From Desulfobacula sp. (GTDB taxonomy: Bacteria > Desulfobacterota > Desulfobacteria > Desulfobacterales > Desulfobacteraceae): DNA of 42,669 nt. Numbering within the stretch: the first letter of the stretch is position 1; each line of letters starts with the position of its first letter. Below the pieces are notes generated by a model. It did not search any database. It was not told the origin of the DNA and saw only the letters and a program-made list of their open reading frames with translations. Shown piece after piece: positions 4,768 through 20,521 of the stretch. The stretch spans positions 1 to 42,669 of the forward strand of contig JABGOU010000035.1 of assembly GCA_018645325.1 (NCBI GenBank), given 5' to 3'. Made by a program: the position numbers and the translations under genes.

Positions 4768-4785
4768 GCAAAAGGAGATAAGAAT

Positions 4786-6039
4786 ATGTATCGAATATTT
4801 ACAATAGCTTTTCGTAATCTTTTAAGATACAAACGAAGAACAATGCTGACCTCTCTTTTAATTACCCTGGGTATTGTTCTGGTAATTTTGTTTTCCGGTC
4901 TTGCCGGTTCTTTTAAAACCATGATGATCGGACAGATTACAGATTCTAATCTGTCCCAGATGCAGATCCATAAAAGAGGATATGTATCGTCAATTGATAC
5001 CATGCCGTTACATCTCACCTTGGATGCAAAGCGATATAAAAAAATTGAAGGCCTGCTTTCAAACAACAGTGAAATAAAAGCCTGGGCTCCCAGGATTAAA
5101 CTCAATGCCATGCTGAGTAATTTTACCGAGACCACCAATATCCGGTTAAATGCTATAAACCCTGAAAAAGAGGTGCTGGTCTGTCCGGATGTAGCCACCC
5201 GGATGACATTTGATGAAAAAAGAGAACCCGGGATGCTGCTCAATAAAGGGGAAGTTATCATCCCGGATAAACTGGCCAAGGGCATGAAGTTGAAAATCGG
5301 TGATGCCATCGTATTGGTTGCAAACAATAAAGACGGCAGTGTGAATGGGTTGAACTTCAAAGTTGCCGGGATTATCGAGAGCATTCTTGGTCCCCAGGGA
5401 AAAGAAGGGTATATGCATATAAAAGATGCCCAGGAACTATTGCGTATGGATAAACCTGAAATGATTGAAGTGGCCATTCGCTTACATGATTTTGATAAAC
5501 TTGGAAAAGTCTATGCTGACATATCTTCAAAACTGGCAGAATTTATTAATAAAAAAGGTATGCCGGAATTTGAAATTCACACCTGGGATAAGCTGTCTCC
5601 TTTTTCCAATATCGCTAAAATGATTGATTTCATGACCATTACAATGAAAATTATTATGATTGCCATTGTGCTCATCAGTATTTTGAACGTGATGATGATG
5701 TCTGTTTATGAACGTGTCAGGGAAATCGGGACCATGTCTGCAATCGGGACCGCTCCTTCACGAATCATGGGTCTTTTTCTTGCAGAAGGGCTTTTGCTGG
5801 GACTGATCAGTACAATTATCGGTAATGTTATTGGACTGGCAGGTATTTTTGTATTGAATATTTATAAAATCAGTTTTGCCTTTGGACGCCAGGACAACCT
5901 GTTGCTTGCGCCTACAGTGAATATAACTGAGCTGTTGTGGGTATCCTGCATTGTTCTTCTGATCTCTGTGTTTGCCAGTTTGCAACCCGCTTATAAAGCA
6001 TCGAGAATGGAACCGGTTGATGCACTGGGGCATGTTTAA
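4786..6039 (+). CDS. FtsX/LolE-type ABC transporter permease
   Basis: The 417-residue protein has one N-terminal membrane helix (about 20-42, LLITLGIVLVILFSGLAGSF), a large periplasmic domain and three C-terminal helices starting near residue 280. The last part contains the FtsX-domain pattern VYERVREIGTMSAIGTAPSRIMGLFLAEG. This is the MacB/LolC/LolE topology. It pairs with the ATPase encoded just upstream, and an AAGGAG site precedes the ATG. With the LolA-like protein and barrel that follow, it probably extracts or moves a lipid-anchored or lipid substrate from the inner membrane toward the outer membrane. Only one permease gene is present, so the complex would be a homodimer, like MacB or LolF systems. 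Confidence 0.9.
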   Translation: MYRIFTIAFRNLLRYKRRTMLTSLLITLGIVLVILFSGLAGSFKTMMIGQITDSNLSQMQIHKRGYVSSIDTMPLHLTLDAKRYKKIEGLLSNNSEIKAWAPRIKLNAMLSNFTETTNIRLNAINPEKEVLVCPDVATRMTFDEKREPGMLLNKGEVIIPDKLAKGMKLKIGDAIVLVANNKDGSVNGLNFKVAGIIESILGPQGKEGYMHIKDAQELLRMDKPEMIEVAIRLHDFDKLGKVYADISSKLAEFINKKGMPEFEIHTWDKLSPFSNIAKMIDFMTITMKIIMIAIVLISILNVMMMSVYERVREIGTMSAIGTAPSRIMGLFLAEGLLLGLISTIIGNVIGLAGIFVLNIYKISFAFGRQDNLLLAPTVNITELLWVSCIVLLISVFASLQPAYKASRMEPVDALGHV

Positions 6040-6070
6040 TTTAATGAATAATTTAATGAAGGTGGCACAT

Positions 6071-6802
6071 ATGAGAAAAATAATCGTCATTGTTTTGCTG
6101 GGTCTGTTTTACTCTACCCTGGTGTTTGCTCTGGATGGAAATGAAATACTCAAGAAGGTGGACAGAAATCTGAACCCTGAAAGTTTTGAAATGTACAGGA
6201 AACTGATAAATATAGAGCCGGATGGCACCAAAAAAGAGTTTGTCATGTTTTCTGTGAAAAAAGGTAAAGAAAAAATTGCATCAGTATTTCTTTCTCCGGC
6301 CAGTGAAAAGGGGCGAGGTACGCTGCGTATCGGAGAAAATATGTGGCTGTATATTCCCAATGTTGGAAAACCCATTAGAATAACAAGTCTTCAATCTGTT
6401 ACAGGTGGGGTGTTTAACAACTCGGATATCATGCGGGTAGACTATAACAGTGAATACAATTGTGAAAAAATAGAAACAACAGATAAAGGGTATACCCTTT
6501 ATTTAAGGGCAAAGTTAAAAAATGTGGCCTATGAAACCCTGACCATGTTTATTGATTCAAAACGATTTCTTCCATATAAAATCGAGGCCTATGCCGCATC
6601 AGGTATGTTAATAAAAAATCTTTATTTTAAGGAAGTTAAAGATTTTGGTGATGGGATCATCCGACCTTCAATTATCGAAACAGACAGCCCGCTGTACAAG
6701 GGGTATAAGTCTTATATTGTTTTTGCAAATGTAAAAAAACGAGAGCTGGCCAGTGAAATTTTCAGTTTGAACTATATGGACAAAATTGAGGGATTACGGT
6801 AA
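6071..6802 (+). CDS. LolA-like outer-membrane lipoprotein-sorting protein
   Basis: I place the start at ATG 6071 because GAAGGTGG lies just upstream and the product then begins with a clear signal peptide (MRKIIVIVLLGLFYSTLVFA). An upstream in-frame ATG at 5972 lies inside the permease gene and would mask the signal. The mature protein is about 220 residues. It resembles the LolA/LolB-fold family annotated as outer-membrane lipoprotein-sorting proteins, with features such as GRGTLRIGENMWLYIPNVGKPIRI and NSDIMRVDY. It is predicted to be periplasmic and to carry the hydrophobic substrate released by the 4096/4786 transporter. It lies 31 bases after the permease and 2 bases before the barrel gene. 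Family call moderately firm; substrate unknown. Confidence 0.8.
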   Translation: MRKIIVIVLLGLFYSTLVFALDGNEILKKVDRNLNPESFEMYRKLINIEPDGTKKEFVMFSVKKGKEKIASVFLSPASEKGRGTLRIGENMWLYIPNVGKPIRITSLQSVTGGVFNNSDIMRVDYNSEYNCEKIETTDKGYTLYLRAKLKNVAYETLTMFIDSKRFLPYKIEAYAASGMLIKNLYFKEVKDFGDGIIRPSIIETDSPLYKGYKSYIVFANVKKRELASEIFSLNYMDKIEGLR

Positions 6803-8142: not shown

Positions 8143-8913
8143 TTATGCCGCCTTTTCATTTCCAATGGGAACCACGATTGGAAATCCTTTATAATAGACA
8201 ATATCAACATTCACCCCATACACATCCTGGACGGTTTTGGAAGAAATATCTTTGACCAATCCTGCACCATAAATTATTTTATCCTTTAAAAGTAAACATT
8301 TATCTGCATATCGCAGAGCAGCATTCAGATCATGCATGGTCATGACGGCTGAAATTTGGTGCTCGATTACAATATTTTTAATCAGCTCCAGGATATGAAT
8401 TTGATTTTTAAGATCCAGGCTGCTTGTGGGTTCGTCAAGCAGAAGTATCCCTGTCTGCTGAACAAGAGCCCTTGCAATTGAGACTTTTTGAAGCTCTCCG
8501 CCACTCATTTGATCCAGGTATTTCAAGCACAGGTGGGACAGGTTTAGTTTTTTTATAATGGCATCCACTTTTTTTAAATCACTGTCGCATGTTTTAAAAC
8601 GGATGTGCGGGTGCCTTCCCATGAGGATGGCATCAAAGGCCGTAATCCTTGAGGAATCAATTCTTTGCCCCACATAGCTGATCTGTCTGGCAATTTGTTT
8701 GACCGTCATTTCCTTTATATTTTGATCGCTCACCATCACAGTGCCTTTCTGGGGTGTAAGGATTGAATTCAAGCATTTAAGAAGCGTTGTTTTTCCTACG
8801 CCATTAGGACCTAAAATAACGGTTATCTCACCTGGGTGAATAGAAAAATTAATATTTTTGAGAGCCTCATGGCTTTTATAACAAAATGCAAGATCATTTA
8901 CTTTAAGAATCAT
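8143..8913 (-). CDS. Iron-complex/cobalamin-type ABC importer, ATP-binding protein (FecE/BtuD family)
   Basis: A 256-residue ATPase with Walker A LGPNGVGKTTLL, signature MSGGELQKVSIARAL, Walker B ILLLDEPTSSLD and the switch histidine in MTMHDLNAAL. The region YVGQRIDSSRITAFDAILMGRHP is characteristic of the FecE/BtuD/FhuC group that energises siderophore, heme and cobalamin importers. It is the last gene of a minus-strand operon (substrate-binding protein, permease, ATPase) and overlaps the permease stop by 4 bases (TGA/ATG). Its 3' end faces the barrel gene with only 6 bases between, so the two operons converge tightly. The substrate cannot be fixed by sequence; a corrinoid, iron chelate or another metal complex is possible. 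Confidence 0.9.
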   Translation of the reverse strand: MILKVNDLAFCYKSHEALKNINFSIHPGEITVILGPNGVGKTTLLKCLNSILTPQKGTVMVSDQNIKEMTVKQIARQISYVGQRIDSSRITAFDAILMGRHPHIRFKTCDSDLKKVDAIIKKLNLSHLCLKYLDQMSGGELQKVSIARALVQQTGILLLDEPTSSLDLKNQIHILELIKNIVIEHQISAVMTMHDLNAALRYADKCLLLKDKIIYGAGLVKDISSKTVQDVYGVNVDIVYYKGFPIVVPIGNEKAA

Positions 8914-9980
8914 TTTTTGTTTCCTTTGAGAATTAAATAGAGAAATACGGGTGCTCCAAGAAATGAGGTGAAAATTGAAACCGGCAGGACATGGGGCAAA
9001 AGGATCAGTCTTGCGACAATATCGGCAACCAGTAATATGAGTGCACCCACGATGATAGTGGCCGGCAAAAGGAACCGTTGATCATCTCCGATCACCCGCC
9101 TGACGATATGGGGTGCTACAAGGCCCACAAAACCGATGATTCCGATAAAAGAGATAATAACGGCAGTGGCACAGGATGACGCCATCATTGCTGTCAGTCT
9201 CACTGCATCGGAATTTACACCAAGGCCTTTTGCGGTTTCATCTCCCATGTCCATGCTGTTATAATTTTTTGTGTTGGCCAGAAAATATAGCAGAATACAG
9301 ACGATTGCCACAAAAATTATCCAAAAATCTTCCCAGTCTGCCCGGGCAACATCTCCAAATGTCCAGAACACCATGGCAGCTAATTGAACATCATCTGCAA
9401 AAAATTGAAGAAACATTGTTCCGGCCATGAAGACAGATCCTAACGCCACACCTGTCAGCACCATGATTTCCGGAGAAGATCCTTTCAGTTTTGCAATGTA
9501 TGTGATCAGCAAAGCAGTTGCCATGGAAAAGCAAAAAGCAGACAGCAGCGTAACCATTCGGTTTGAAATATTAAAAGTATCATTTAAAGAACTTGTCAGG
9601 GTTGCAGAACCAAGAATCATGACGGAAAAAGCAGCGCCAAATGCAGCTGCATGAGCAATTCCAAGGGTAAAAGGAGATGCCAGTGGATTTCTTAAAACAG
9701 ACTGCATAACCGCCCCGGCCCCTGCAAGGCCGGCACCGGCAACCACAGCCGTCAACGTTTGCGGCAGCCTGATATTCCAGATAATGAGGTCAAACTGTCT
9801 GGATTCGGTATTTTTCAACAGGGTTTTGATCACGTCAACAAACCCGATTTGGACAGATCCAAGACAGATGCTGATAAGCATAACCAGAATCAAAATAATA
9901 AAAGCAAGGAGTATAAAAACATTTTTTTTTCGAATATACCCTGAATATTCAGCAGAGATTTCACCATGGTCAAAATGCAT
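8910..9980 (-). CDS. FecCD/BtuC-type ABC importer permease
   Basis: 356 residues with about ten membrane segments and the FecCD-family hallmarks: RLPQTLTAVVAGAGLAGAGA, LRNPLASPFTLGIAHAAA, and the coupling region FIGIIGFVGLVAPHIVRRVIG. It has a slightly longer N-terminal cytoplasmic tail than usual (MHFDHGEISAEYSGYIRKKN). It overlaps the ATPase gene downstream and lies 12 bases after the substrate-binding protein gene, so all three form one transcription unit. The homologous permease in the plus-strand corrinoid operon (16792-17799) shares the fold but differs clearly in sequence, so this is a paralogous importer rather than a recent copy. Confidence 0.92.
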   Translation of the reverse strand: MHFDHGEISAEYSGYIRKKNVFILLAFIILILVMLISICLGSVQIGFVDVIKTLLKNTESRQFDLIIWNIRLPQTLTAVVAGAGLAGAGAVMQSVLRNPLASPFTLGIAHAAAFGAAFSVMILGSATLTSSLNDTFNISNRMVTLLSAFCFSMATALLITYIAKLKGSSPEIMVLTGVALGSVFMAGTMFLQFFADDVQLAAMVFWTFGDVARADWEDFWIIFVAIVCILLYFLANTKNYNSMDMGDETAKGLGVNSDAVRLTAMMASSCATAVIISFIGIIGFVGLVAPHIVRRVIGDDQRFLLPATIIVGALILLVADIVARLILLPHVLPVSIFTSFLGAPVFLYLILKGNKK

Positions 9981-9992
9981 TTGGATACCCTT

Positions 9993-11105
9993 TTAATTTA
10001 ACTCTAAAGGTTGAAAAACAATGTCTTTAAACAATGATTTCATAGACTTGAACACTGGTTTTGAAACCAGGAACTCATAAATTTCATCCGCCTTTTTTTC
10101 CGGGGTAATATCCAGAAATTTTTCCGGGTACAGAATTTTGCCGATATACCACGCATTGGCAAGAATAGATCCAAAATTTTGTGTGTACCAGTTATAGGGA
10201 AGAACCCCATATACTTTATTTGCTTGAACTGCGGTCAACCCCTGGTAAACAGGATCATTTTTAAGTTCGTGCAAACCGTCTTGTCCTTCGCCCATTTGAA
10301 GTGTGGATAGATCAAGGAACATGATACTGGGATCAAGCTGAAGAATTTTTTCCTTGGAGAAATTGCTGTTACGGATGTTTTTCCCTGCCATATCTTTGGT
10401 TGCGGCGATGTTGTTTGCATTAACAAATTTAAAAGGCGGATAAGAAGGTTCTGTGGATTGGAAGCCATGGGGGCCTTTAAAAGCAATTCCCCCGACAAAA
10501 CATGTTTTTTTATCCGCAATGTCTCTGGTCCTGCTTTCAAGATCCTGAATATGCCGGTTAAAAAAATCAATCAGTTCGCTGGCCCTTGATTCTTTGTTCA
10601 GCACCTGCCCGATGACTTTTAATGAATTGAAAAACTGTTTTCTTCCTTTGTGAAGATCCCCATATTCAAGAATAACAACCGGGATTTCTGTCTTTCTCTC
10701 AAGTTCAACAGGATCATACCCCATAGTGGCAAATGTTTTAAAAATTATCTGAGGAGACTGTTTTAAACCTATAATTTTCTCGGGATCATCATTACCCCGG
10801 AACCCTCCAAAAACAGGAAAGCTTTTAAATTGGGGATTTGCCAGAGAATAGGGCCGGGCATCAAATTTGTTTGTTCTTGTCTCAATGTCATCCACTGCCA
10901 CAACTCTATCCTGGGCACCAAAATAGGTGATCAATCTCAAACATCCGGGCCCAGAGCAAATTATTCTGTCAATTTTTATGGGTATGGATACAACCCTATC
11001 GTTGCCATCTATTATTTGTCTCAACGGCTGGGATACGGAAACCGATGTTAAAAAAGCCAGGAACAACAGGATAAACACTGGTAATAAATATTTTTTTTCA
11101 GTCAT
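9993..11105 (-). CDS. Periplasmic substrate-binding protein of the minus-strand FecBCD/BtuFCD-type importer
   Basis: I take ATG 11105 as the start because GGAG lies 6 bases upstream; an in-frame TTG four codons earlier overlaps that ribosome site. The product (370 residues) has a signal peptide (MTEKKYLLPVFILLFLAFLT...) and a helical-backbone metal receptor fold: residues DGNDRVVSIPIKIDRII, then YFGAQDRVVAVDD, and the second-lobe pattern EKILQLDPSIMFLDLS. Length is larger than E. coli BtuF (about 270), matching the long FecB-like branch common in anaerobes. No lipobox cysteine is evident. It sits back to back with the B12-regulated operon, which makes a corrinoid substrate plausible, but its own leader lacks a cobalamin riboswitch. 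Substrate is uncertain. Confidence 0.85.
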   Translation of the reverse strand: MTEKKYLLPVFILLFLAFLTSVSVSQPLRQIIDGNDRVVSIPIKIDRIICSGPGCLRLITYFGAQDRVVAVDDIETRTNKFDARPYSLANPQFKSFPVFGGFRGNDDPEKIIGLKQSPQIIFKTFATMGYDPVELERKTEIPVVILEYGDLHKGRKQFFNSLKVIGQVLNKESRASELIDFFNRHIQDLESRTRDIADKKTCFVGGIAFKGPHGFQSTEPSYPPFKFVNANNIAATKDMAGKNIRNSNFSKEKILQLDPSIMFLDLSTLQMGEGQDGLHELKNDPVYQGLTAVQANKVYGVLPYNWYTQNFGSILANAWYIGKILYPEKFLDITPEKKADEIYEFLVSKPVFKSMKSLFKDIVFQPLELN

Positions 11106-11125
11106 TGCTGTCTCCAAAAATAAAA

Positions 11126-11182
11126 AAAGCTACAAAAGCAAAATTTCTCTTAAAATAAGAAATTGCAAGCTTTCGTAGCTTT
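11126..11182 (-). promoter_or_regulatory. Long hairpin with U-tract in the leader of the minus-strand importer operon
   Basis: Read on the minus strand, AAAGCTAC (11182-11175) pairs perfectly with GTAGCTTT (11133-11126), and inner AAAGC/GCTTT and AATTTCT/AGAAATT helices stack inside. The stem is followed at once by a run of seven T and then ATTTTT, only about 10 bases before the GGAG ribosome site of the gene starting at 11105. The shape is that of an intrinsic terminator placed inside a 5' leader, so attenuation is possible. I could not match it to a known riboswitch. On the plus strand it also ends in GTTTTT and might stop antisense transcription. Confidence 0.5.
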
Positions 11183-11216
11183 GTTTTTAATATGTATTAA
11201 TACTGCACTTTTATTT

Positions 11217-11271
11217 TTTGTCTACTGACAAATAGTAAAATATTTTTACGAAATAAGAATAGTTTTGTCAA
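11217..11271 (-). promoter_or_regulatory. Candidate promoter and palindromic operator of the minus-strand importer operon
   Basis: TTGACA (minus strand, 11271-11266) is followed after 17 bases by TAAAAA (11248-11243), a fair -35/-10 pair. About ten bases downstream lies a perfect 6-4-6 palindrome, TTTGTC-TACT-GACAAA on the plus strand (11217-11232), where a repressor would block transcription start. The regulator is not identifiable; the motif is not an obvious Fur box. Confidence 0.4.
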
Positions 11272-11382
11272 GTTGAGTTTTTTTATAACCGGATAGCAGA
11301 GGCTTTTTTAATAATTATACTGGCATGTATTTTGATAGTATCCATAATTAGGCACAAAAACCGTTATCTGAAAATAATCTTA

Positions 11383-11532
11383 ATGGAGATAAAAATAAAA
11401 ACATTGATTACATATTCCAGTCAAACCGAAAATACCCTCAAGCTTGCCCCAATCATTATCGTTTCAACTATTGGAAGATTGACAAGCTTATCAGATTCCC
11501 ATTCAACGATAAAATTATCTATTGACTTTTAA
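11383..11532 (+). pseudogene. Flavodoxin relic (N-terminal segment only)
   Basis: An open frame reads MEIKIKTLITYSSQTENTLKLA, which closely matches the first strand and FMN-phosphate loop of flavodoxins (ITYxSQTGNTxKLA). The glycine of the loop is replaced by glutamate. After this point the similarity disappears and the frame stops at 11530-11532, far short of the usual 140 or more residues. There is no ribosome site in front. I read it as the decayed 5' end of a flavodoxin gene between two importer operons. The match is short, so chance cannot be excluded. Confidence 0.45.
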
Positions 11533-11550
11533 GATGGTCGGCTCTAAATA
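11522..11550 (+). promoter_or_regulatory. Candidate promoter for the cobalamin riboswitch operon
   Basis: TTGACT (11522-11527), a 17-base spacer and TAAATA (11545-11550) precede the riboswitch aptamer by about 10 bases. The -35 is good and the -10 weak. Position is consistent with transcription starting just ahead of the aptamer. Confidence 0.4.
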
Positions 11551-11559
11551 AACAAACTA

Positions 11560-11720
11560 AGTTCAGGTGCTATGAATGCTTAATAGGGAACTCCTGTGTG
11601 AAACAGGGACGGGCCCGCCGCTGTAATCGAGGACGAAAACCGCAACCAATGCCACTGTAAGTTTTTACGGGAAGGCGCGGTAATTAGGATGATCCGAGAG
11701 TCAGAAAACCTGCCTGAATT
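11560..11720 (+). ncRNA. Cobalamin (AdoCbl) riboswitch aptamer
   Basis: The aptamer is closed by TTCAGG (11562-11567) pairing with CCTGAA (11713-11718). Inside are the conserved elements in order: the AGGGAA block, CGGGCCCGCCGCTGTAA, GCCACTGTAAG, GGGAAGGCGCGG, and finally the B12-box segment GATGATCCGAGAGTCAG followed by ACCTGCC. It lies 123 bases upstream of a BtuB-type receptor gene. By family knowledge, adenosylcobalamin or a related corrinoid binding switches off the downstream operon. Confidence 0.95.
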
Positions 11721-11778
11721 GTAGTTGCATGTTTTTTCGGACAAAAAAAACATACATGATCTTGAGTAAATTAGGGAC

Positions 11779-11814
11779 ACCCTGGATCGATTTTAATGGT
11801 CCGGGGTTTTTTTA
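11779..11814 (+). terminator. Rho-independent terminator, expression platform of the cobalamin riboswitch
   Basis: ACCCTGGA (11779-11786) pairs with TCCGGGGT (11800-11807, one G-T wobble) and is followed by a run of T up to 11812. Located between the aptamer and the receptor gene, it is the likely off-state of a transcription-terminating riboswitch. Confidence 0.8.
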
Positions 11815-11842
11815 TTCTCCGGGCTGATGTTTCGGAGGAGAC

Positions 11843-13873
11843 ATGAAAAAGACATTCTATTTAACCTTGATTTTTTTTCTTTTATTATTTTCGGCGATTG
11901 CTTGGGCTGAAAAAATTGTTTCAATGGATGAAGTGGTTGTCACTGCAACCAAGACAGAAGAGCAACGAAAAGATATTCCAAATTCAGTTATTACCGTGGA
12001 TGATATCGACATTGAAGCATCCCCTGCCACCAGTATTGGAGATTTTTTAGGCGGCGAACTTGGTGTTGACTGGCGAACCCGTGGTGATTACGGAGGCGCT
12101 GGCCAGGAATTGCATATTCGGGGAATGGGCGCAGATGGAACCCAGGTGCTCGTGAACGGACTTTCCATCAATTCACCATCTCTGGGATCAGCTGATCTGA
12201 GCAAGATATCTGCCAGTAATATTGAACGTATTGAAATTGTCAAAGGATCTGGATCTGTTCTTTATGGATCCGGTGCCATGGGCGGTACCGTGAATATTCT
12301 GACCAAAAGCCCTGAACAGGATCAAACCGATTTAATCATTAATACCGGATATGGATCAGAAGGGACCTATGGGGTCGGATTCCAAAACGGTATGTTTGTC
12401 ACCCAGACCCTTGGGTATTATCTGACAGCCAATACCTATGGTACGGATGGGTTCAGGGATAATGCCGATGGCCGGAACAAGGACGTCTCTTTAAAATTAC
12501 TCTTTGATAAAGGCAACGCCTTTAAATTGAGCCTATATGGTGATTATATTGATCGAGATAGCGGTCGCCCCGGCCCCAAACCACCCGAGGGAACCCAGCC
12601 TTTTTCTGTAAATGGTGTGGTTATATATAATGGCGATTCAGGCAGTTTGCTCAACACTGTCCAAGAAGAAGACAAGCACTTTATTTTAAAGATGGAAGAC
12701 GTCCCCTTGGATTGGCTGTCATATAATTTTCAAACCGATTATACCGATATGGTCAGCAATAATTATTCGCGATATTATAGTGCCTTTACCCTGGGAAATC
12801 TTCCGGGAAGCACGACAAAGGTATCCAATCAGGTGCAGGGATTTGAAGGGAACGTAACCCTTAAGCCCTTTGATGGAACCACTATCCTTTTGGGTATGCA
12901 ATATAAAGATTATGACTGGGAGAATATCTCCACCACTTTAGACGGTTACGGTAATGCAACCACAAGTCTTTCCGGCACGGCTAACCTTTATAGTACGGGG
13001 CTGTTTAGTGAACTCCAGTATCGGCCCTGCAAATTTATCAAAGGTAGTATCGGCATCCGGCATGAAAAACACTCGGAGTTTGGTGAAGAGCTTTTACCCA
13101 GGTTCGGTTTTGTGTTTAATCCATTCGAGACAACAGCCATTAAATTCAATACGGGCAAACATTTTAAAGCCCCAACCCCCAATGATTTGTACTGGCCCTA
13201 TGAAAACTGGGGCTGGGGAATGGGAGCCCAGGGGAATTCCGACCTTAAGCCGGAAACCGGCCGTCATACAGATATTGGGATTGAGCAGTCCCTTGCCGAC
13301 AATAAAATATTTTTAAATTTGAGCTATTTTACATGGGATATTGAAGATAAAATCGAATGGGTCCCTGATGCCAGTTTCTTTTATCGTCCGGAAAATCTTT
13401 CAACATATGAAGCATCCGGTTTTGAAGCCGGAGCAATTGTTGGGCCTTATCAAAACATGACCCTTTCGATTAATTACACCTATACGGATGCAAAAGAACA
13501 AAAACCAGGCGGAGCCAAACGACAATCCAGATATACGGCCAAGGATTTTTTCAAGGCCGGGCTGACCTATTGGTTTGATTTCGGTCTGGATCTGACTGCC
13601 ACATACCGGTATACGGGCAAACGTCCTGCTATCTATGCGGCAGATACAGACACGGAACCAACCCAATATCTTTCCGGCTATGACACCCTGGACCTAAAGG
13701 CAAGACAGGAAATATCAGAAAACTGGTCTGTGTCTGTTCAGGTTAATAATGTGTTTGATGAATCCTATGGAACTTATGTGGAGACATTTTATGATCAGAC
13801 TGGAACCGGTACATTGTCACAATATCCGGGTGCCGGGCGGTCTTATTATGCCTCGGTGACATATTCATTTTAA
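11843..13873 (+). CDS. btuB: TonB-dependent outer-membrane corrinoid receptor (BtuB-like)
   Basis: 676 residues: signal peptide ending in AIAWA, a TonB box/plug start MDEVVVTATKTEEQRK (about 28-43), the plug domain with ELHIRGMGADGTQVLVNG and IERIEIVKGSGSVLYGSGAMGG, and a 22-strand type barrel ending in a terminal phenylalanine (YYASVTYSF). This is the standard vitamin B12/siderophore receptor layout. Corrinoid specificity is inferred from the cobalamin riboswitch directly upstream and the BtuFCD-CbiZ genes directly downstream. ATG follows CGGAGGAG. It is the first gene of the operon running to tonB at 20521, which includes its own energising complex. Confidence 0.93.
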   Translation: MKKTFYLTLIFFLLLFSAIAWAEKIVSMDEVVVTATKTEEQRKDIPNSVITVDDIDIEASPATSIGDFLGGELGVDWRTRGDYGGAGQELHIRGMGADGTQVLVNGLSINSPSLGSADLSKISASNIERIEIVKGSGSVLYGSGAMGGTVNILTKSPEQDQTDLIINTGYGSEGTYGVGFQNGMFVTQTLGYYLTANTYGTDGFRDNADGRNKDVSLKLLFDKGNAFKLSLYGDYIDRDSGRPGPKPPEGTQPFSVNGVVIYNGDSGSLLNTVQEEDKHFILKMEDVPLDWLSYNFQTDYTDMVSNNYSRYYSAFTLGNLPGSTTKVSNQVQGFEGNVTLKPFDGTTILLGMQYKDYDWENISTTLDGYGNATTSLSGTANLYSTGLFSELQYRPCKFIKGSIGIRHEKHSEFGEELLPRFGFVFNPFETTAIKFNTGKHFKAPTPNDLYWPYENWGWGMGAQGNSDLKPETGRHTDIGIEQSLADNKIFLNLSYFTWDIEDKIEWVPDASFFYRPENLSTYEASGFEAGAIVGPYQNMTLSINYTYTDAKEQKPGGAKRQSRYTAKDFFKAGLTYWFDFGLDLTATYRYTGKRPAIYAADTDTEPTQYLSGYDTLDLKARQEISENWSVSVQVNNVFDESYGTYVETFYDQTGTGTLSQYPGAGRSYYASVTYSF

Positions 13874-13892: not shown

Positions 13893-15890
13893 TTGAAAAT
13901 AATCAAAATGGTCTTGCTGGTGCTCGTATTCTTATATCTGCCAATGGGTAGTGCTTTTTCATTTTCAGTCAAATTTGTGGATGACAAAAATGATCCCTTT
14001 GTTTTAAGCCAAAGTCCTTCCCGGGTGGTTTCACTGGTACCCGCCATTTCGGAAATCATTTTTAAATTAGGTGTCCAGGATGCCCTAAAAGGCATAACCT
14101 ATCATTCCAATTTTCCAGGGGCATCCGGCAAGGCTATTGTGGGTGGTTTTTTTGGGCCATCTGTTACAGCTATCAATGAATTGAATCCGGATCTTATCTT
14201 TATTTCCAGTCTGCACACTGAGGTTAAAACGTATTTTAAAGATAAAGATGTCCTTCTCATTGAATTGAATACTACCTCTGTTTTAGATGGGATCAATACC
14301 ATATCCTTATTGGGAAAGATATTTGATAAGCAGGAACAGGCTCGGGTGATTAGATCGGGAATTGATGAACAAATCGATCTGATTACCAAAAAACTGAGCC
14401 GGATAGAGCCTGATCAGAAATTGAGGGTGATGCGGTTTATGGGAAGAGATCAGATGATGAGCCCGGGCAATGATTCGTTTCAAAATGATTTGATTCGGAT
14501 GTCCGGGGGCATTCCCCCTGATTTTGATAAAAAGGGAGCTATTGTATCGGTTACCAAAGACGAGTGGATGCACTTTAATCCCCAGGTTATTTATGGATGC
14601 GGGAAAGACAATGAGATTGAACAGCAGATCCTGACCCAGCCGGGATGGAAAGATGTGGATGCGGTGAAAAACAAACGGATCTATTATTTTCCCTGTGATC
14701 TGACCTGCAGGGCAGCCACCAATACGGGATATTTTATTCAATGGCTGGCATCTTCGATATATGGGCAACAATTTGCCCTCAAGGAAAACTTGATTTTCGA
14801 ACCCAAAATCATTGCCTCAAAATCCATTTCCCCGGACTTTGAATGTATTGAAACAATCCGTGTGGATGATACCCATATCCTTGATTTTGTAAACAAGAGT
14901 CTGGTGATAGATTTGAAATCTCCCATGGCAATTGTATCCACTCTTGAGGGCAGGCGCGAAGGCATTCGAACTATTGTCAATCACTATACACCGCCCCAGA
15001 ACTGGATGATTGATCATGGCCACGGCATTGATTTCATCCGCAGGCGCATCGCCACGGCATTGAATAAAAACCCGGACCACACCAGTGTGTTGATCACGGG
15101 GGCCAATATGGATAACCTGGCAGTCAAAACAGCCCTGTTCAAGGATCTTAAAGTGGGTGCTTTTGTTACGGCCGGGGTTAAATCCAATGCCATGCGCATG
15201 GGCAAAAGTAAGGGGCATTATTATGAACCCGGAACCATTAATATAATTCTTGTGACCAATATGAGGCTGTCCCCACGTGCCATGACCCGGGCCATTGTCA
15301 CGGCCACCGAGGCAAAAACAGCCGCACTGCTTGATATGGATATCAGGACAAGTTATGACGACGGAGCCTTCAGAGCAACGGGTACTGGCACGGACAATGT
15401 CCTTGTGCTGGAAGGGACCGGGCCTTTGCTGGACCATACCGGCGGCCATACCAAACTTGGGGAGATGATGGCCCGTGTGGTGTATGAGGGTGTTAAAGCG
15501 GCTGTCTTAAAACAAAACAGCCTGGATGCGGAACGTAATATTTTTTTACGCCTGAAAGAAAGAGGGATCTCCATATATGAGGTGATTTCTTTAGAAAAAG
15601 ACTGTGATTGCGCCCAGGGTAAGTCCCGGTTCGCAGGGGAGGTGGAAGAACTTCTGCTGGACCCCAAATATTCAGGTTTTCTTCAAATGGCTTTATCCAT
15701 AAGTGATGATTATCAAAAGGGGTTGATAAAAGATCTATCTTCGTTTGAGGCATTTTCCCGGAATATTGCAACAGATATATGCAGATGTGATATGGACGAA
15801 CTTAAACCCATGGTTCAAAAAGATCTGCCCCATGTGATCATCATGGGACTGAATGCCTTGTTAAACGGTACCCATTACAGGAACAAATAA
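13893..15890 (+). CDS. Secreted fusion of a BtuF-like corrinoid-binding domain with CbiZ adenosylcobinamide amidohydrolase
   Basis: 665 residues. TTG 13893 is taken as start: GGGGAG sits 6 bases upstream and the product begins MKIIKMVLLVLVFLYLPMGS, a signal peptide. An in-frame ATG at 13908 keeps the hydrophobic core. Residues 35-300 are a helical-backbone substrate-binding domain (SPSRVVSLVPAISEIIFKLG, LNPDLIFIS). Residues about 325-545 are CbiZ: AGVKSNAMRMG (427-437), GTINIILVTN (447-456), LSPRAMTRAIVTATEAKTAA, ATGTGTDN (495-502) and HTGGHT (515-520). A further 120 helical residues with a CDC motif follow and are unrecognised. CbiZ cuts the aminopropanol amide of adenosylcobinamide (or some cobamides) to give adenosylcobyric acid for salvage. 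Without a membrane segment between domains, the enzyme should end up in the periplasm. Domain calls are firm; location is inferred. Confidence 0.88.
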   Translation: MKIIKMVLLVLVFLYLPMGSAFSFSVKFVDDKNDPFVLSQSPSRVVSLVPAISEIIFKLGVQDALKGITYHSNFPGASGKAIVGGFFGPSVTAINELNPDLIFISSLHTEVKTYFKDKDVLLIELNTTSVLDGINTISLLGKIFDKQEQARVIRSGIDEQIDLITKKLSRIEPDQKLRVMRFMGRDQMMSPGNDSFQNDLIRMSGGIPPDFDKKGAIVSVTKDEWMHFNPQVIYGCGKDNEIEQQILTQPGWKDVDAVKNKRIYYFPCDLTCRAATNTGYFIQWLASSIYGQQFALKENLIFEPKIIASKSISPDFECIETIRVDDTHILDFVNKSLVIDLKSPMAIVSTLEGRREGIRTIVNHYTPPQNWMIDHGHGIDFIRRRIATALNKNPDHTSVLITGANMDNLAVKTALFKDLKVGAFVTAGVKSNAMRMGKSKGHYYEPGTINIILVTNMRLSPRAMTRAIVTATEAKTAALLDMDIRTSYDDGAFRATGTGTDNVLVLEGTGPLLDHTGGHTKLGEMMARVVYEGVKAAVLKQNSLDAERNIFLRLKERGISIYEVISLEKDCDCAQGKSRFAGEVEELLLDPKYSGFLQMALSISDDYQKGLIKDLSSFEAFSRNIATDICRCDMDELKPMVQKDLPHVIIMGLNALLNGTHYRNK

Positions 15891-15895
15891 ATGAT

Positions 15896-16792
15896 ATGTT
15901 AAATTTTCAAAACAGATGCTGCCAACTGCTGAATATGGTGCTGAGTCTGGTGCAGGGGGTCATCCTGGTGCTGATCATCCTGGTGCCGGGTCCCTCTTTT
16001 GCTACAGATCATGTGCCGGGGAAAATTGTGTCCCTTGGGCCCTTTATTACAGACATGATTTATCTTCTAAAAGCCCAAGACAAATTGGTGGCCGTAACCA
16101 GTTATTGCAAGCTTCCCGAGGACTCTGAACCCAAACAGATCATTGGCACGGTCATGCAGATGAATGTTGAAAAGATCATCAGCCTGGAACCGGACCTGGT
16201 ACTGGCCAATGCCCTGACCCGTCAGAAACAGATCGATGCGTTAAGAAAACAGGGCTTAAGCGTCATGCGGTTGCCAACGCCCAGGACATTTGATGATATC
16301 TGTCAACGATTGATCGATCTTGGCAATCTGATTGAAAAGCATGAAGAGGCTCTTGAAGTAGTCAATCAAGCCCGGAAAAACGTCAGCCGGATCAAAACAA
16401 AGGCTCTGGCCACCCCAAAAAGAAGGGTCTTTATTCAAATCGGTCTCAAGCCGCTCAAAACAGCAGCAAAGGATACCTTTATTAATGAATACATCGAATT
16501 TGCCGGGGGGATTAATGTTGCCTCACAAGCAAACGAAGGGGTTTACAGCAGAGAAAAGGTATTGGAACAGGATCCGGATGTTATCTTTATTGCCACCATG
16601 GGATCATCCAAAAAGGCCGGGACAAATGAAAAATCATCCTGGCAGCGGTTTACATTTTTAAAAGCGGTAAAAAACAATGAGATCCATATATTGGACCCTG
16701 ATATGGTCTGCAGTCCGACGCCGGAACAATTTTCAAAAGGGTTGCTGGAGTTTTTTCATCTGATTCATCCGATTAAGGGGAAAAACTTGTGA
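15896..16792 (+). CDS. btuF: BtuF-like periplasmic corrinoid-binding protein
   Basis: 298 residues with an N-terminal hydrophobic segment (VLSLVQGVILVLIILVPGPSFA) and a compact BtuF-type fold: GKIVSLGPFITDMIYLLKAQDKLVAV, then MNVEKIISLEPDLVLA and YSREKVLEQDPDVIFIA in the second lobe. An in-frame ATG at residue 14 is a possible alternative start; the first ATG has AGGAA about 12 bases ahead. It follows the BtuF-CbiZ fusion by 5 bases and overlaps the permease gene by one base. The operon therefore has two binding proteins for one BtuCD pair, one plain and one carrying the amidohydrolase. This plain copy probably delivers corrinoid to BtuC. Confidence 0.88.
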   Translation: MLNFQNRCCQLLNMVLSLVQGVILVLIILVPGPSFATDHVPGKIVSLGPFITDMIYLLKAQDKLVAVTSYCKLPEDSEPKQIIGTVMQMNVEKIISLEPDLVLANALTRQKQIDALRKQGLSVMRLPTPRTFDDICQRLIDLGNLIEKHEEALEVVNQARKNVSRIKTKALATPKRRVFIQIGLKPLKTAAKDTFINEYIEFAGGINVASQANEGVYSREKVLEQDPDVIFIATMGSSKKAGTNEKSSWQRFTFLKAVKNNEIHILDPDMVCSPTPEQFSKGLLEFFHLIHPIKGKNL

Positions 16793-17799
16793 TGGATAAA
16801 AAAATCAGACAATGGCTTATCGTGTTAATCCTCCTGGTCGTGTCTTTAATATTGGTCAGTTTTCTGGCACTGGCCATTGGCAGCAGTCAGATTCCTATAA
16901 CCGATATAATCGATATTGTCTTGAACCAGAAAGGGACGGCCTCCTACCATATTTTAACAGGTGTCCGTCTGCCCCGGATCATTGTTGCCATTGCCGTGGG
17001 CGGTTCTCTCGGACTGGCCGGTACTCTGCTCCAGGGTATGTTTCGAAATCCCCTTGTTGAGCCGTATACCCTGGGGATTTCCGGGGGGGCCTCTTTGGGA
17101 GTCTGTCTGACCATTGTTTTCGGTCTCCATGCAAAGATAGGGGTTGTGGCCTATCCGCTTTCCGGATTCATGGGCGCAGGGCTGGTGATTTTTGTCGTCT
17201 ATGTGTTAAGCCTTGAAAGCGGCGCTTTAAAACCGAACACCATGCTTTTGACCGGGGTGATGATCAGCTTTGTATCTTCATCTCTTGTCATGCTGTTGAT
17301 GGCGGTTTCCAAAAGTGATGACCTTCATAATATCGTTTTCTGGATCATGGGATCCTTAGATGAGCCGGACCTGACATTGATCACCATTGTGAGCGTGGGG
17401 GCTGTATTGGGACTTATCATTTCTCTTTTTCATTGCCATAATCTGAATGCACTGGCTCTTGGAGAAGAACAGGCTGCCTTTCTGGGCGTTAATACAACTC
17501 GAACCAAAAAAATCCTTTTTATCACCGCATCCATGCTTACGGGCTTAAGTGTTTCCGTTGCCGGTATTATCATGTTTGTGGGTCTGATTGTACCGCACTT
17601 CATGCGAATGGTGATTGGTGCAGATTATCGGATACTGGTCATCAGTTCCTTTCTGGGAGGGGCTGTGTTTCTCATCTTGTGTGATCTGTTTGCCCGGATC
17701 ATCATATCTCCCCTGGAACTTCCAGTGGGCGTGATCACCGGCATCATCGGAGGGATTGTATTTATTTATGTTCTGGGCAAAAAGCAGGTGAGACTATGA
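16792..17799 (+). CDS. btuC: Corrinoid ABC importer permease (BtuC-like)
   Basis: 335 residues from ATG 16792, which overlaps the previous stop as TGATG with AGGGG 11 bases ahead; a GTG codon just upstream is less likely. It has about ten membrane helices and FecCD-family signatures: GVRLPRIIVAIAVGGSLGLAG, MFRNPLVEPYTLGISGGASLG and the ATPase-coupling loop IIMFVGLIVPHFMRMVIGADYR. The neighbours (BtuF, BtuD, TonB receptor, riboswitch) make corrinoid import across the inner membrane the likely role. The downstream ATPase gene overlaps its stop by 4 bases. Confidence 0.92.
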   Translation: MDKKIRQWLIVLILLVVSLILVSFLALAIGSSQIPITDIIDIVLNQKGTASYHILTGVRLPRIIVAIAVGGSLGLAGTLLQGMFRNPLVEPYTLGISGGASLGVCLTIVFGLHAKIGVVAYPLSGFMGAGLVIFVVYVLSLESGALKPNTMLLTGVMISFVSSSLVMLLMAVSKSDDLHNIVFWIMGSLDEPDLTLITIVSVGAVLGLIISLFHCHNLNALALGEEQAAFLGVNTTRTKKILFITASMLTGLSVSVAGIIMFVGLIVPHFMRMVIGADYRILVISSFLGGAVFLILCDLFARIIISPLELPVGVITGIIGGIVFIYVLGKKQVRL

Positions 17800-18614
17800 G
17801 TGAAACAATATTGGAGTTAAACGGCCTTTGCATCGGATACAACCGGGCCAAAATCCTGAACAATATCAATTTTAATGCAGGCCGTGCAGAAATAGTCAGT
17901 ATTCTTGGCCCCAATGGCTCAGGGAAAACCACACTCTTAAAAACCATTGCCGGTGCCATAGACCCCATGGGCGGAAAGATCCTCTTGCAGGACCGGAACA
18001 CGCAGGATATCCCGCTGAAAGATCTGTCTCGGAAAATGGCGGTGGTCATGCAGTTTGAGCAGGCAGCCCATATGACGGTTGAAGAATATGTCATGATGGG
18101 AAGACTTCCGTTTTTCAAGTCGTTTCAATTTTTTGAAACCCAAAAAGACCGTGATATGGTAGATAAATATCTGGAACTCACCGATACCCTTGGATTAAAA
18201 GATTTGCCGTTCAACCAGATCAGCGGCGGAGAAAGACAATTGGTCTCCATTGCAAGGGCACTGGTCCAGGAACCCATGCTTTTGTTGCTTGACGAACCCA
18301 CTTCTCACCTGGATATCGGGCACCAAAAGCAGATTCTGGATTTGATTCACACCCTGAAAGAACACTTGAACATCAGTGTTGTGATTGTCCTTCACGACTT
18401 GAACCTGGCAAGTGAATATTCTGATACCCTGGTCATGATAGATGCCGAATCCCGGACTGTATTTGCTCAAGGAACGTCGGAAAAGGTAATGACAAAAGAA
18501 ATCATCCAGCAGGTATACCACACGGATGTCCTGATGATGAAACATCCGATAACTGACAGACCGGCTGTCTTTTTATCCAGACAAAAAAAAAGGATAGATA
18601 AAAATCAAGGATAG
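17796..18614 (+). CDS. btuD: Corrinoid ABC importer ATP-binding protein (BtuD-like)
   Basis: 272 residues with Walker A LGPNGSGKTTLLK, signature ISGGERQLVSIARAL, Walker B LLLLDEPTSHLD and switch histidine in VLHDLNLAS. It starts inside the permease stop (ATGA overlap), implying translational coupling. The C-terminal extension (VYHTDVLMMKHPITDRPAVFLS) is the usual FecE/BtuD tail. It drives BtuC and completes the importer of the riboswitch-controlled operon. A short Lys-rich tail (RQKKRIDKNQG) is unremarkable. Confidence 0.92.
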   Translation: MSETILELNGLCIGYNRAKILNNINFNAGRAEIVSILGPNGSGKTTLLKTIAGAIDPMGGKILLQDRNTQDIPLKDLSRKMAVVMQFEQAAHMTVEEYVMMGRLPFFKSFQFFETQKDRDMVDKYLELTDTLGLKDLPFNQISGGERQLVSIARALVQEPMLLLLDEPTSHLDIGHQKQILDLIHTLKEHLNISVVIVLHDLNLASEYSDTLVMIDAESRTVFAQGTSEKVMTKEIIQQVYHTDVLMMKHPITDRPAVFLSRQKKRIDKNQG

Positions 18615-18639: not shown

Positions 18640-19266
18640 ATGGAAAAAATATTTTATAGTGGCGGCGTGTTGATGTTTCCGCTTTTGTTATGTTCTATCA
18701 TTTCTCTTACGGTTATCCTGGAGCGATCCCTATTCTGGATCGGGGTGGGAATGAAACGGAATAGAAAGGTGGTGGAACAGGTGTTTGACCTCTGTCTCAA
18801 AGAGGATTGGGAGGGGGTTCAACGAGTGACGGCCGGTTCAAAAAGCTATATTGCCCGGATATTGTTAAGCGGGGTTATGCACAGGCAGTATTCTCCCATA
18901 AAGGCCATGGAACTTGCAGCCGCAGATGAGATTTTTTCTATGCAGCGGTTTATGAACATATTAGATACCATCATCACCATTGCTCCGCTGTTGGGTATAT
19001 TGGGAACGGTTGTGGGGATTATTGAGACCTTTGATATGCTGGGCACATCAGGAATTGACAACCCACAGGCGGTCACGGGCGGGATTGCCAAAGCCCTGAT
19101 CACAACTGCCTCAGGTCTTGCCATAGCCATCATGACCGTCTTTCCGTATAATTATTTTAACACCCGTATCCAACGCGCTGCCCAGATCATAGAAAAATAT
19201 ACCACCAGTTTTGAGATTGATCAGGACAGAAGACTCTCATGCCCCGGGGACGACCATGAAGCTTAA
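18640..19266 (+). CDS. exbB: ExbB/TolQ-type proton channel subunit
   Basis: 208 residues with three predicted helices: an N-terminal one (GGVLMFPLLLCSIISLTVILE) and two C-terminal ones around LDTIITIAPLLGILGTVVGIIETF and GGIAKALITTASGLAIAIMTVFPY. This is the MotA/TolQ/ExbB core. The TolQ-like threonines (TTASGL) are present. ATG follows AAGGAG 25 bases after btuD, and exbD starts inside its last codons. It forms the proton-driven motor with ExbD that energises TonB. Its place in the B12 operon suggests a dedicated motor for corrinoid receptor uptake. Confidence 0.9.
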   Translation: MEKIFYSGGVLMFPLLLCSIISLTVILERSLFWIGVGMKRNRKVVEQVFDLCLKEDWEGVQRVTAGSKSYIARILLSGVMHRQYSPIKAMELAAADEIFSMQRFMNILDTIITIAPLLGILGTVVGIIETFDMLGTSGIDNPQAVTGGIAKALITTASGLAIAIMTVFPYNYFNTRIQRAAQIIEKYTTSFEIDQDRRLSCPGDDHEA

Positions 19267-19684
19267 TCTGCCGCCTGTCAAGAAAGCAAGGATCGAACTA
19301 TTGCCCTTAATGGACATTATTTTTTTACTATTGGTTGTCTTTATCTATTCCATGCTGTCCATGTCTGTCCATCATGGCATGCCGGTCAAATTGCCGATTT
19401 CATCCCTTGCCAAACCAGATAAAACCCTTGTATTGTCTGTAACGGTCAAGGCGGATAACCAGATCTTTGTGAACAAAAAACAGGTGGCCCTTGAAGATCT
19501 TGCATCCAGTCTCAAAGAAAAAGCCCAGGCCCGGAAAGATTCCGGGGTTCTCTTATTTGCCCATAAAGATATTTCCTATCAGCATCTTTTTCTTGTCCTT
19601 GATCAGATAAAGATGGCAGGGTTGTCTCAAATTTCTCTTCAGGCCCAATTTCAGGGTGACATCAAGAATTCCAGGATAAAATAA
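19256..19684 (+). CDS. exbD: ExbD/TolR-type motor subunit
   Basis: I choose ATG 19256, preceded by GGGGA and overlapping the exbB stop by 11 bases. The 142-residue product has the conserved membrane segment with the essential aspartate, ELLPLMDIIFLLLVVFIYSML, then a periplasmic domain with SVKADNQIFVNKKQV-like ExbD pattern. It couples proton flow to TonB movement together with the upstream ExbB. A longer in-frame start at 19211 lies in exbB and adds no recognisable sequence. Confidence 0.88.
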   Translation: MKLNLPPVKKARIELLPLMDIIFLLLVVFIYSMLSMSVHHGMPVKLPISSLAKPDKTLVLSVTVKADNQIFVNKKQVALEDLASSLKEKAQARKDSGVLLFAHKDISYQHLFLVLDQIKMAGLSQISLQAQFQGDIKNSRIK

Positions 19685-19687
19685 GAA

Positions 19688-20521
19688 TTGATTTTAAGCT
19701 CCCCGATAAGAGTTTTTCTGGCATTGCTGATTGCCGTATTCCTCCATTTAATGATTTTTGCATTCTTGCCATCCCTGTTAATCAAAAAGTCTGAAGAGGA
19801 CAGGCTCCAGATAAAATCAGTTACGATTACAATGGGGTATACTGTTTTGGAATCGGTCAAGCCACCTCCACCAATTAAAGAAAAGGTCCTGCCTAAAAAA
19901 AAGAAAAAGGCGTTGCCACAAGCAGTGAATAAACCAAGACAGGCGATGGAACCACCAAAAATAAAAAAAAAGTCGCCAAGCTCTACCATAAAAGTTTCGA
20001 AACAAAAAAAGAAAGTCCCGGCCGTCACGACGTCACTTGAAGCAATACCTTTAGCAGAAACGCCGGATGGACGTCACGATCCAACGCCGGAACCAACACC
20101 TGAACCAACACCTGATCCAATGCCGGAAATAGAAACAGTGTTAGAATCAGACAAGCCCCTGAACGATATACAACCTGCCCAAGAAGTAAAGGCCCATAAA
20201 CAATTTACAACAGTCAACATACCTTTAAAAAAATCAATTGAAATTTTAAAAATTACCGACCCTGAGTTTAAAAGTAATCCTTTGCCCAAATACCCTGAAA
20301 AGGCCAGGAAAAGAGGGTATGAAGGGCTGGTTGAATTGAAAGTGCTCATATCGATTGACGGACAGATTTCACAGATAAAAATTCATAAATCGGCGGGGTA
20401 TGCCATCCTTGATCGTCAGGCTATGAGAACTGTAAAAAAATGGAAATTCATCCCTCGAAAAAACAATGGCCAGGCCACCGAAACCTGGGTGATGATTCCG
20501 ATACGATTTAAGCTTAATTAA
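19688..20521 (+). CDS. tonB: TonB energy-transducing protein
   Basis: 277 residues with an N-terminal anchor (VFLALLIAVFLHLMIFAFLPSLL), a long Pro/Lys-rich linker that includes KPPPPIKEK and a short EPTPEPTPEPTPDP repeat, and a C-terminal TonB domain (LPKYPEKARKRGYEGLVELKV ... SAGYAILDRQAMRTVKKWKF). The start is TTG 19688, with AGGA about 11 bases upstream; no in-frame ATG exists before the anchor. It is the last gene of the operon and presumably contacts the TonB box of the receptor at 11843. A receptor, importer and own TonB/ExbBD set in one B12-controlled operon makes it self-sufficient. Confidence 0.9.
   Translation: MILSSPIRVFLALLIAVFLHLMIFAFLPSLLIKKSEEDRLQIKSVTITMGYTVLESVKPPPPIKEKVLPKKKKKALPQAVNKPRQAMEPPKIKKKSPSSTIKVSKQKKKVPAVTTSLEAIPLAETPDGRHDPTPEPTPEPTPDPMPEIETVLESDKPLNDIQPAQEVKAHKQFTTVNIPLKKSIEILKITDPEFKSNPLPKYPEKARKRGYEGLVELKVLISIDGQISQIKIHKSAGYAILDRQAMRTVKKWKFIPRKNNGQATETWVMIPIRFKLN

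Follow-up and report, generated by a model that had tools for sequence, protein, structure and literature searches.

Organization of the operon and architecture of the fusion protein

The stretch of DNA analysed here (the window) comprises 42,669 nucleotides of contig JABGOU010000035.1 from a Desulfobacula genome. It carries an operon with the gene order btuB-fusion-btuF-btuC-btuD-exbB-exbD-tonB and a cobalamin riboswitch at its front. The features referred to below are:

11549-11731 (+), cobalamin riboswitch opening the operon (Rfam RF00174, 102.9 bits, cut-off 31.5)
11843-13873 (+), btuB-type TonB-dependent receptor (Plug and barrel Pfam domains above cut-off)
13893-15890 (+), fusion gene encoding a leader, a BtuF-like domain, CbiZ and a CobZ-like C-terminal domain (ORF and Pfam)
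13893-13955 (+), predicted Sec signal peptide, residues 1-21 (hydropathy 2.16 over 19 residues)
13971-14792 (+), class III periplasmic binding domain, residues 27-300 (Pfam and fold)
14874-15527 (+), CbiZ domain, residues 328-545 (Pfam, AF2 and Foldseek)
15207-15209 (+), Ser439, a position held by Asp in 71 of 73 fusions (alignment)
15231-15236 (+), Gly447-Thr448, predicted self-cleavage site and nucleophile (41 of 41 CbiZ; ArgJ/S58 register)
15528-15887 (+), C-terminal domain akin to the CobZ portion of CbiS, lacking PPFLDD, residues 546-665 (hhalign 90.8-92.2%)
15896-16792 (+), plain BtuF (Pfam; both Glu aligning with those of NLE and SRE in E. coli BtuF)
16789-17799 (+), BtuC-type permease (FecCD, E 1.4e-92)
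17796-18614 (+), BtuD-type ATPase (ABC_tran)
18640-19266 (+), ExbB-like protein (by eye, from ORF and position)
19211-19684 (+), ExbD-like protein (by eye, from ORF and position; the start as given falls within exbB and is perhaps too far upstream)
19688-20521 (+), TonB-like protein (by eye, from ORF and position)

The btuB-type receptor scores 175.6 bits against the NCBIfam TonB-B12 model, under the cut-off of 599.7. Elsewhere in the window, genes for another class III uptake system (a binding protein, a permease of the FecCD type and an ATPase; 8143-11117, minus strand) lie divergent from the riboswitch operon, and a T-box leader (29203-29446, 110.8 bits, cut-off 93) precedes a gene at 29528-32623 (+) for a class I aminoacyl-tRNA synthetase, by its domains probably isoleucyl.

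The fusion ORF encodes 665 amino acids without an internal stop. Its start codon is TTG, with GGGGAG 7 bases upstream, and the stop of btuB lies 19 bases before it. Pfam places Peripla_BP_2 at residues 45-267 (E 1.1e-20, 74.5 bits, cut-off 27.5) and CbiZ (PF01955) at residues 341-534, spanning profile positions 2-191 of 191 (E 2.5e-52, 178.1 bits, cut-off 27). The highest 19-residue hydropathy in the protein is 2.16 (residues 3-21), and segments starting past residue 26 all stay at or below 1.38, so that no membrane segment is expected between the binding domain and CbiZ. The ORF, the Pfam matches and the hydropathy profile thus agree with the claim of an earlier note on this DNA that a single open frame joins a leader, a BtuF-like domain and a full CbiZ without a membrane segment between them. 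The description in the note stopped at about residue 545; residues 546-665 constitute a third conserved domain. AF2 returned confident models of the full-length protein (pLDDT 88.8, pTM 0.86) and of residues 303-665 (pLDDT 89.9, pTM 0.88).

Distribution and phylogeny of the fusion in Desulfobacterota

The fusion was sought in two genome sets. Among 395 genomes sampled from the phylum, identified as Desulfobacterota through named relatives, 81 have a CbiZ match and 57, that of the window included, carry the fusion. Five of these 57 fusions are partial or reduced: G112 stops at a contig end, G313 is split over two frames, and G219, G241 and G377 retain only the C-lobe side of the binding domain. 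The other 24 CbiZ genomes have cytoplasmic-looking proteins of about 390 amino acids (15), stand-alone CbiZ (six), CbiS (one) or short divergent proteins (two); the 390-residue form also occurs in six fusion genomes. The genome of the window (4.39 Mb in 157 contigs, with a completeness of about 90%) contains no CbiZ match other than the fusion.

A scan of named genomes gave at least 411 relatives, and the best 80 of these all hold the fusion architecture at 38-58% identity; being the best-scoring loci, they give no frequency. Their titles are mostly Desulfobacterota or Deltaproteobacteria, some only bacterium or Proteobacteria, with one Bacteroidales and one Nitrospirae. Isolates with the fusion include Desulfosarcina widdelii PP31, Desulfogranum marinum DSM 2058, Desulforhopalus singaporensis DSM 12130 and strain NaphS2. 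The fusion closest to that of the window among the best 80 (L032, 58%) is on a contig labelled as a Bacteroidales MAG; a binning error is likely there, because a near-equal copy sits in a Desulfobacula MAG from the same sample series. In L129 (genome G252) two different fusion genes lie in opposite directions on one contig, at 4248-6284 (-) and 10997-13012 (+). A chance or chimeric frame, or an assembly join, is ruled out by the conservation of the architecture (80 of 80 retained loci, 57 of 395 genomes).

Of the 80 named loci, many of which end at contig ends, 68 contain one or more homologues of the uptake genes in the operon (E 1e-8) and 12 contain none; a BtuB homologue is present in 54 and a further binding protein in 34. 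In 18 named fusion loci, the 5 kb upstream of the fusion were scanned for a same-strand cobalamin riboswitch, which was identified in 16, the exceptions being L041 and L101.

Three alignments were used. A1 holds 27 of 30 loci, omitting L011 (truncated), L019 (a near copy of L017) and L023 (start unsure); A2 holds 73 sequences, namely that of the window and 72 fusions from 71 of the 80 loci (L041 gave two, and nine truncated or odd-length loci were omitted); and A3 holds 60 of the 73 in A2. A plasmid search returned 15 CbiZ records, three of which were taken as reference. Mean pairwise identity among aligned fusions is 59.9% in the CbiZ part, 49.7% in the binding domain and 39.4% in the C-terminal domain. 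In a tree of 41 hand-picked CbiZ proteins, 16 fusions including the short ones (98/98), five stand-alone proteins (100/99) and 14 of the 390-residue form (98/96) make up separate groups, and the closest row to the window fusion is from a Desulfobacula MAG.

Evidence for export

All leader calls were made from hydropathy and reading by eye. The predicted cleavage site of the window fusion is after Ala21 or Ser23 (by eye). A hydrophobic stretch ahead of residue 30 is found in 73 of 73 aligned fusions, the window copy included, and the fusion L175 has a lipobox-like leader. In cytoplasmic-type CbiZ proteins the strongest 11-residue segment scores at most 1.75 in 13 of 14, and 2.19 in one (L120); the same crude measure fails two proteins of the leader-bearing groups, L165 (no leader seen) and L173 (leader outside the measured stretch). 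Three proteins of one family (L168, L169 and L170; f86), nested inside the fusion clade of the CbiZ tree, have lost the N-lobe of the binding domain and retained the leader and a full CbiZ. Stand-alone CbiZ occurs in six genomes, with a leader in five of the six; none is seen in frame in G327, and the protein of G246 has an internal gap. Leader-bearing stand-alone proteins without a binding domain (L118:2739-3557, L119:2822-3652, L128:2429-3352 and L164:1813-2658) form a clade of their own. Leader-bearing CbiZ thus occurs in 62 of the 81 CbiZ genomes, as 57 fusions (two with the gene start not intact) and five stand-alone proteins.

Export of the fusion, as read from these sequences, is well supported, in line with the earlier note, which had assigned the CbiZ protein a signal peptide. 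Leader and CbiZ outlast the N-lobe in three proteins, and five of six stand-alone CbiZ carry a leader; both observations suggest selection for exporting the enzyme itself.

The binding domain

The solved proteins that match the binding domain best, in sequence and fold searches alike, bind iron, haem or siderophores; BtuF ranks lower (Foldseek best E 1.0e-15; V. cholerae BtuF 2.3e-13). Against the NCBIfam BtuF equivalog (cut-off 234) the fusion reaches 29.5 bits and the plain BtuF of the operon 104.2, both below the cut-off. The fusion has in common with BtuF the class III binding fold and the corrinoid operon, and from the operon only we infer the corrinoid specificity of the BtuF-like domain. 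It differs from BtuF in its low equivalog score, in the apparent absence of the first docking Glu from the window copy and in carrying an enzyme domain.

Two Glu residues of BtuF have a docking role. Matched by eye to E. coli BtuF, the first of these positions is E in 21, D in 20 and K in 12 of 73 fusions, and Thr in the window copy; in the second docking region, also by eye, E or D stands at 223 in 58 of 73 and E at 224 in 53 of 73. The earlier note had pointed out a second, plain BtuF in the operon, and that protein is indeed present with both docking-type Glu retained, a distribution of residues that would suit a hand-over from the fusion to plain BtuF.

Cys236 and Cys272 are conserved in 73 of 73 fusions and Cys268 in 72 of 73 (codons 14598-14600, 14706-14708 and 14694-14696 in the window). 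Presumably two of them could pair as in BtuF; the third would then be free, and perhaps close to the ligand.

The CbiZ domain is predicted to belong to the DmpA/OAT hydrolases

The fusion shares the complete domain and conserved residues of CbiZ, the amidohydrolase of adenosylcobinamide and pseudo-B12 (PF01955), and differs from it in its predicted export, in being joined to a binding protein and, in the window copy, in Ser439. The fusion adjoins corrinoid transport genes, as cbiZ is known to do in other bacteria (the accessible part of PMC8620254). Ten residues are invariant in 41 of 41 CbiZ proteins (Thr402, Thr426, Gly428, Asn432, Gly447, Thr448, Gly497, Thr498, Thr500 and Asp501), and the fusion retains the TGTGTD stretch. 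The earlier note had raised the loss of catalytic residues as a possible objection; the window copy retains the conserved residues except at position 439, which is Asp in 71 fusions, Glu in one and Ser in the window copy.

Searching PDB sequences with the CbiZ-containing part of the fusion gave no relative beyond one chance-level match. For the AF2 model of residues 303-665, all 42 PDB chains found by Foldseek at E 1e-3 or better are hydrolases of the DmpA/OAT type (best E 5.8e-7; TM-scores 0.30-0.39). They include NylC and other nylon hydrolases, BapA, ornithine acetyltransferase, ThnT, a Burkholderia beta-aminopeptidase and PH0078, which we take to be of the DmpA/OAT type. Enzymes of this group cut themselves before a Ser or Thr, which then becomes the nucleophile. 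In the portions of the papers available, MtArgJ cleaves itself between Ala199 and Thr200 (PMC5887547) and NylC before Thr267 (PMC6021441).

When a profile of the 41 CbiZ proteins is aligned with ArgJ (25 proteins) and with S58 (27 proteins), Thr448 coincides with the nucleophile in both cases. Compared with column shuffles, its S58 score is above 100 of 100, and its ArgJ score is above 89 of 100 (11 of 100 as high), which is not significant; the accepted pair ArgJ-S58 scores about as CbiZ does (21.5), and a binding-protein profile used as a negative control scores 13.1 and 14.7. Other settings and subsets agree in part. When gaps were treated by a different rule, the S58 match was best over the last helix instead of the nucleophile; that with ArgJ started at the nucleophile and scored 16.9. 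A profile of fusions only retains the Thr448 register with S58, its best ArgJ stretch pairing Thr402-Gly403 with the ArgJ STG motif, presumably the oxyanion hole. With a profile of non-fusion CbiZ, the best stretches are the last helix (S58) and the STG region (ArgJ), neither covering Thr448. At a laxer setting, both alignments with ArgJ become longer and, at low confidence, bring Thr448 (or the residue equivalent to it) opposite the nucleophile; the one of the fusions also runs through Asn363. The loop 434-446, just ahead of Gly447, is the only stretch under 50 pLDDT in the full-length model and is above 50 in the model of residues 303-665.

Taken by sequence alone, the kinship of CbiZ to DmpA/OAT enzymes is weak. 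CbiZ shares with NylC, BapA, ThnT and ornithine acetyltransferase the predicted fold and, with the 41-sequence profile, a putative nucleophile register; it differs in having no significant sequence similarity to them and in that its self-cleavage is a prediction. In our judgement, CbiZ likely has the DmpA/OAT fold and probably cuts itself before Thr448, the predicted and fairly likely nucleophile. This fold match, with the invariant Thr448 on or near the nucleophile of self-cleaving hydrolases, is what is new here, and it offers a concrete catalytic hypothesis for an enzyme with no solved relative found by sequence.

The C-terminal domain and a possible CbiS-like ancestor

Pfam gives no match on the C-terminal part of the fusion alone. 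Compared by hhalign with the CobZ half of a CbiS protein (L117), this domain gives 92.2% and a score of 42.4, the maximum of 100 shuffles being 19.4; the PPFLDD segment of L117 faces LPHVIIMG in the fusion. L117 itself scores 146 bits against TIGR03161 (cut-off 152.5), with PgpA slightly under its cut-off, and the fusion scores 90.6 bits against the NCBIfam CbiS equivalog, under the cut-off of 250. A kinship of the C-terminal domain with the tail of the cytoplasmic CbiZ of about 390 amino acids was unsupported (hhalign 0.1%).

In CbiS, the bifunctional CbiZ-CobZ protein, CbiZ is followed by a CobZ-related domain as in the fusion; the one example, L117, is without a BtuF domain or leader, and the fusion is without the PPFLDD segment. 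The hhalign match, together with the position of this one CbiS sequence near the fusions in the CbiZ tree, suggests, if thinly, that the fusion was derived from a CbiS-like ancestor. Most likely the C-terminal domain is what remains of that ancestor and now has a structural role.

Probable cobamide rebuilding in the host genome and the relation to CbiR

One stretch of the genome of the window encodes CobU, CobS, CbiB and CbiR together with a decarboxylase resembling CobD (270 bits, cut-off 290.55); three BtuR and a CbiD were also found. With this set of genes the organism can probably rebuild cobamides and perhaps make them. CbiB uses cobyric acid, the product of CbiZ, and is encoded by 54 of the 57 genomes with the fusion, compared with 196 of the 338 without it (Fisher p 5e-9, ignoring shared ancestry and draft gaps).

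CbiR, a phosphodiesterase, initiates cobamide remodelling (the accessible part of PMC7733943) and thus resembles the fusion in beginning this process. It is set apart by its AP endonuclease 2 superfamily fold, the other bond that it cuts and the lack of known export. The two rarely co-occur: CbiR is above cut-off in 2 of 57 fusion carriers and 64 of 338 others (p 0.002), and within CbiB genomes in 2 of 54 carriers and 49 of 196 others (p 2e-4), both tests ignoring shared ancestry and draft gaps. The genome of the window is one of the two with both. Its CbiR (L114:8268-9089, minus strand; G000:C70) scores 258.7 bits (cut-off 105) beside cbiB, the cobD-like gene, cobS and cobU. With CbiR also present inside the cell, the exported step would not be this organism's sole entry to remodelling.

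Proposed function of the fusion protein

We propose that the fusion is an exported, probably self-processing corrinoid amidohydrolase acting ahead of import, a reading to which we give roughly two chances in three. The protein would be exported by Sec and work in the periplasm, where the BtuF-like domain would capture a corrinoid delivered through BtuB. The tethered CbiZ, of DmpA/OAT fold, would cut itself before Thr448, and this residue would then serve as nucleophile in hydrolysing the amide that bears the aminopropanol or nucleotide arm, yielding cobyric acid. The trimmed corrinoid would pass to BtuCD, probably via plain BtuF, and inside the cell BtuR, CbiB, CobU and CobS would rebuild it with the cell's own lower ligand. 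We infer the activity, the substrate, the order of events, the self-cleavage and the hand-over. Periplasmic trimming ahead of the importer had been suggested in the earlier note; the leader, the corrinoid context and the plain BtuF agree with it, and the part concerning corrinoid capture by the BtuF-like domain derives from the operon.

Several points count against this reading: Ser439 in the window copy at a position that is nearly always Asp, CbiR in the same genome, TM-scores of only 0.30-0.39, a sequence match to ArgJ that is not significant, and a binding domain nearer to iron and haem binders than to BtuF. A further point is that CbiZ is known from assays with adenosylated substrates, whereas adenosylation takes place in the cytoplasm.

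It is unlikely, in our estimate, that the exported CbiZ is largely or wholly inactive as a hydrolase and acts within a large receptor as an additional module for binding corrinoids. Ser439, the loss of PPFLDD from the adjoining CobZ-like domain and the CbiR of this genome would suit such a module, but the CbiZ part is the best conserved of the protein, with Gly447, Thr448 and TGTGTD retained, leader and CbiZ outlast the binding domain in three proteins, and an enzyme would fit both the rarity of CbiR and the frequency of CbiB among the carriers. We give slightly less weight still to an exported amidohydrolase that cleaves another corrinoid amide or conjugate, or that spoils foreign cobamides for competitors instead of feeding import. 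The first docking Glu (matched by eye) is poorly kept in the fusions, so that they may not dock to BtuC; the riboswitch, the import operon and the CbiB link point instead to own use, and the product could be passed on to plain BtuF, which has both Glu. Quite improbable is a true start past the hydrophobic stretch, an objection foreseen in the earlier note that would make the protein a cytoplasmic CbiZ joined to a binding fold: CbiZ is generally held to be cytoplasmic and, of the downstream in-frame ATGs (13908 and 13944), that at 13944 would yield a leaderless protein, but it lacks a clear ribosome site, whereas GGGGAG matches the TTG at 13893, and the leader is found in every aligned fusion, lipobox-like in L175, while nearly all cytoplasmic-type CbiZ score low.

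Our literature search found no BtuF-CbiZ fusion, periplasmic CbiZ or CbiZ treated as an Ntn enzyme; the primary CbiZ papers were outside its scope and a prior description is possible. An exported CbiZ is not described in the accessible portions of PMC8620254, PMC3541065, PMC7733943, PMC4285132, PMC8269236, PMC13390414, PMC5723603, PMC6461909, PMC11321594, PMC5887547, PMC6021441. Within those portions, cbiZ is already known to adjoin transporter genes (PMC8620254), CbiZ has been proposed to be coupled to uptake (PMC7733943), and the presence of CbiZ serves to predict bacteria able to remodel B12-type cofactors (e.g. PMC6461909). Another tie to a part of the corrinoid importer is the ATPase-CbiZ fusion of Bacillus, presumably of the YvrA type (example L181, Cytobacillus, 489 amino acids); joined to a cytoplasmic ATPase, its CbiZ would lie on the other side of the membrane from that of the window fusion.

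Remodelling of B12 relatives is normally placed inside the cell. In this relative of the sulfate reducers, a B12-type receptor and a B12-trimming enzyme are united in one predicted exported protein, and remodelling may start outside the inner membrane. More broadly, we lean, if only somewhat, towards the view that in much of the phylum it does so by way of an exported receptor-enzyme, assembled from a binding protein and a CbiS-like ancestor, that captures foreign corrinoids and strips the arm before import, and that CbiZ as a whole is an unrecognised DmpA/OAT branch with Gly447-Thr448 as cleavage site and nucleophile. If this is true, Gly447-Thr448 would give CbiZ its missing mechanism. If most CbiZ genomes of the phylum have the leader-bearing form, models of corrinoid sharing would need a periplasmic step: the importer would meet cobyric acid instead of whole cobamides, and the cut corrinoids and their released arms might leak out to be shared.
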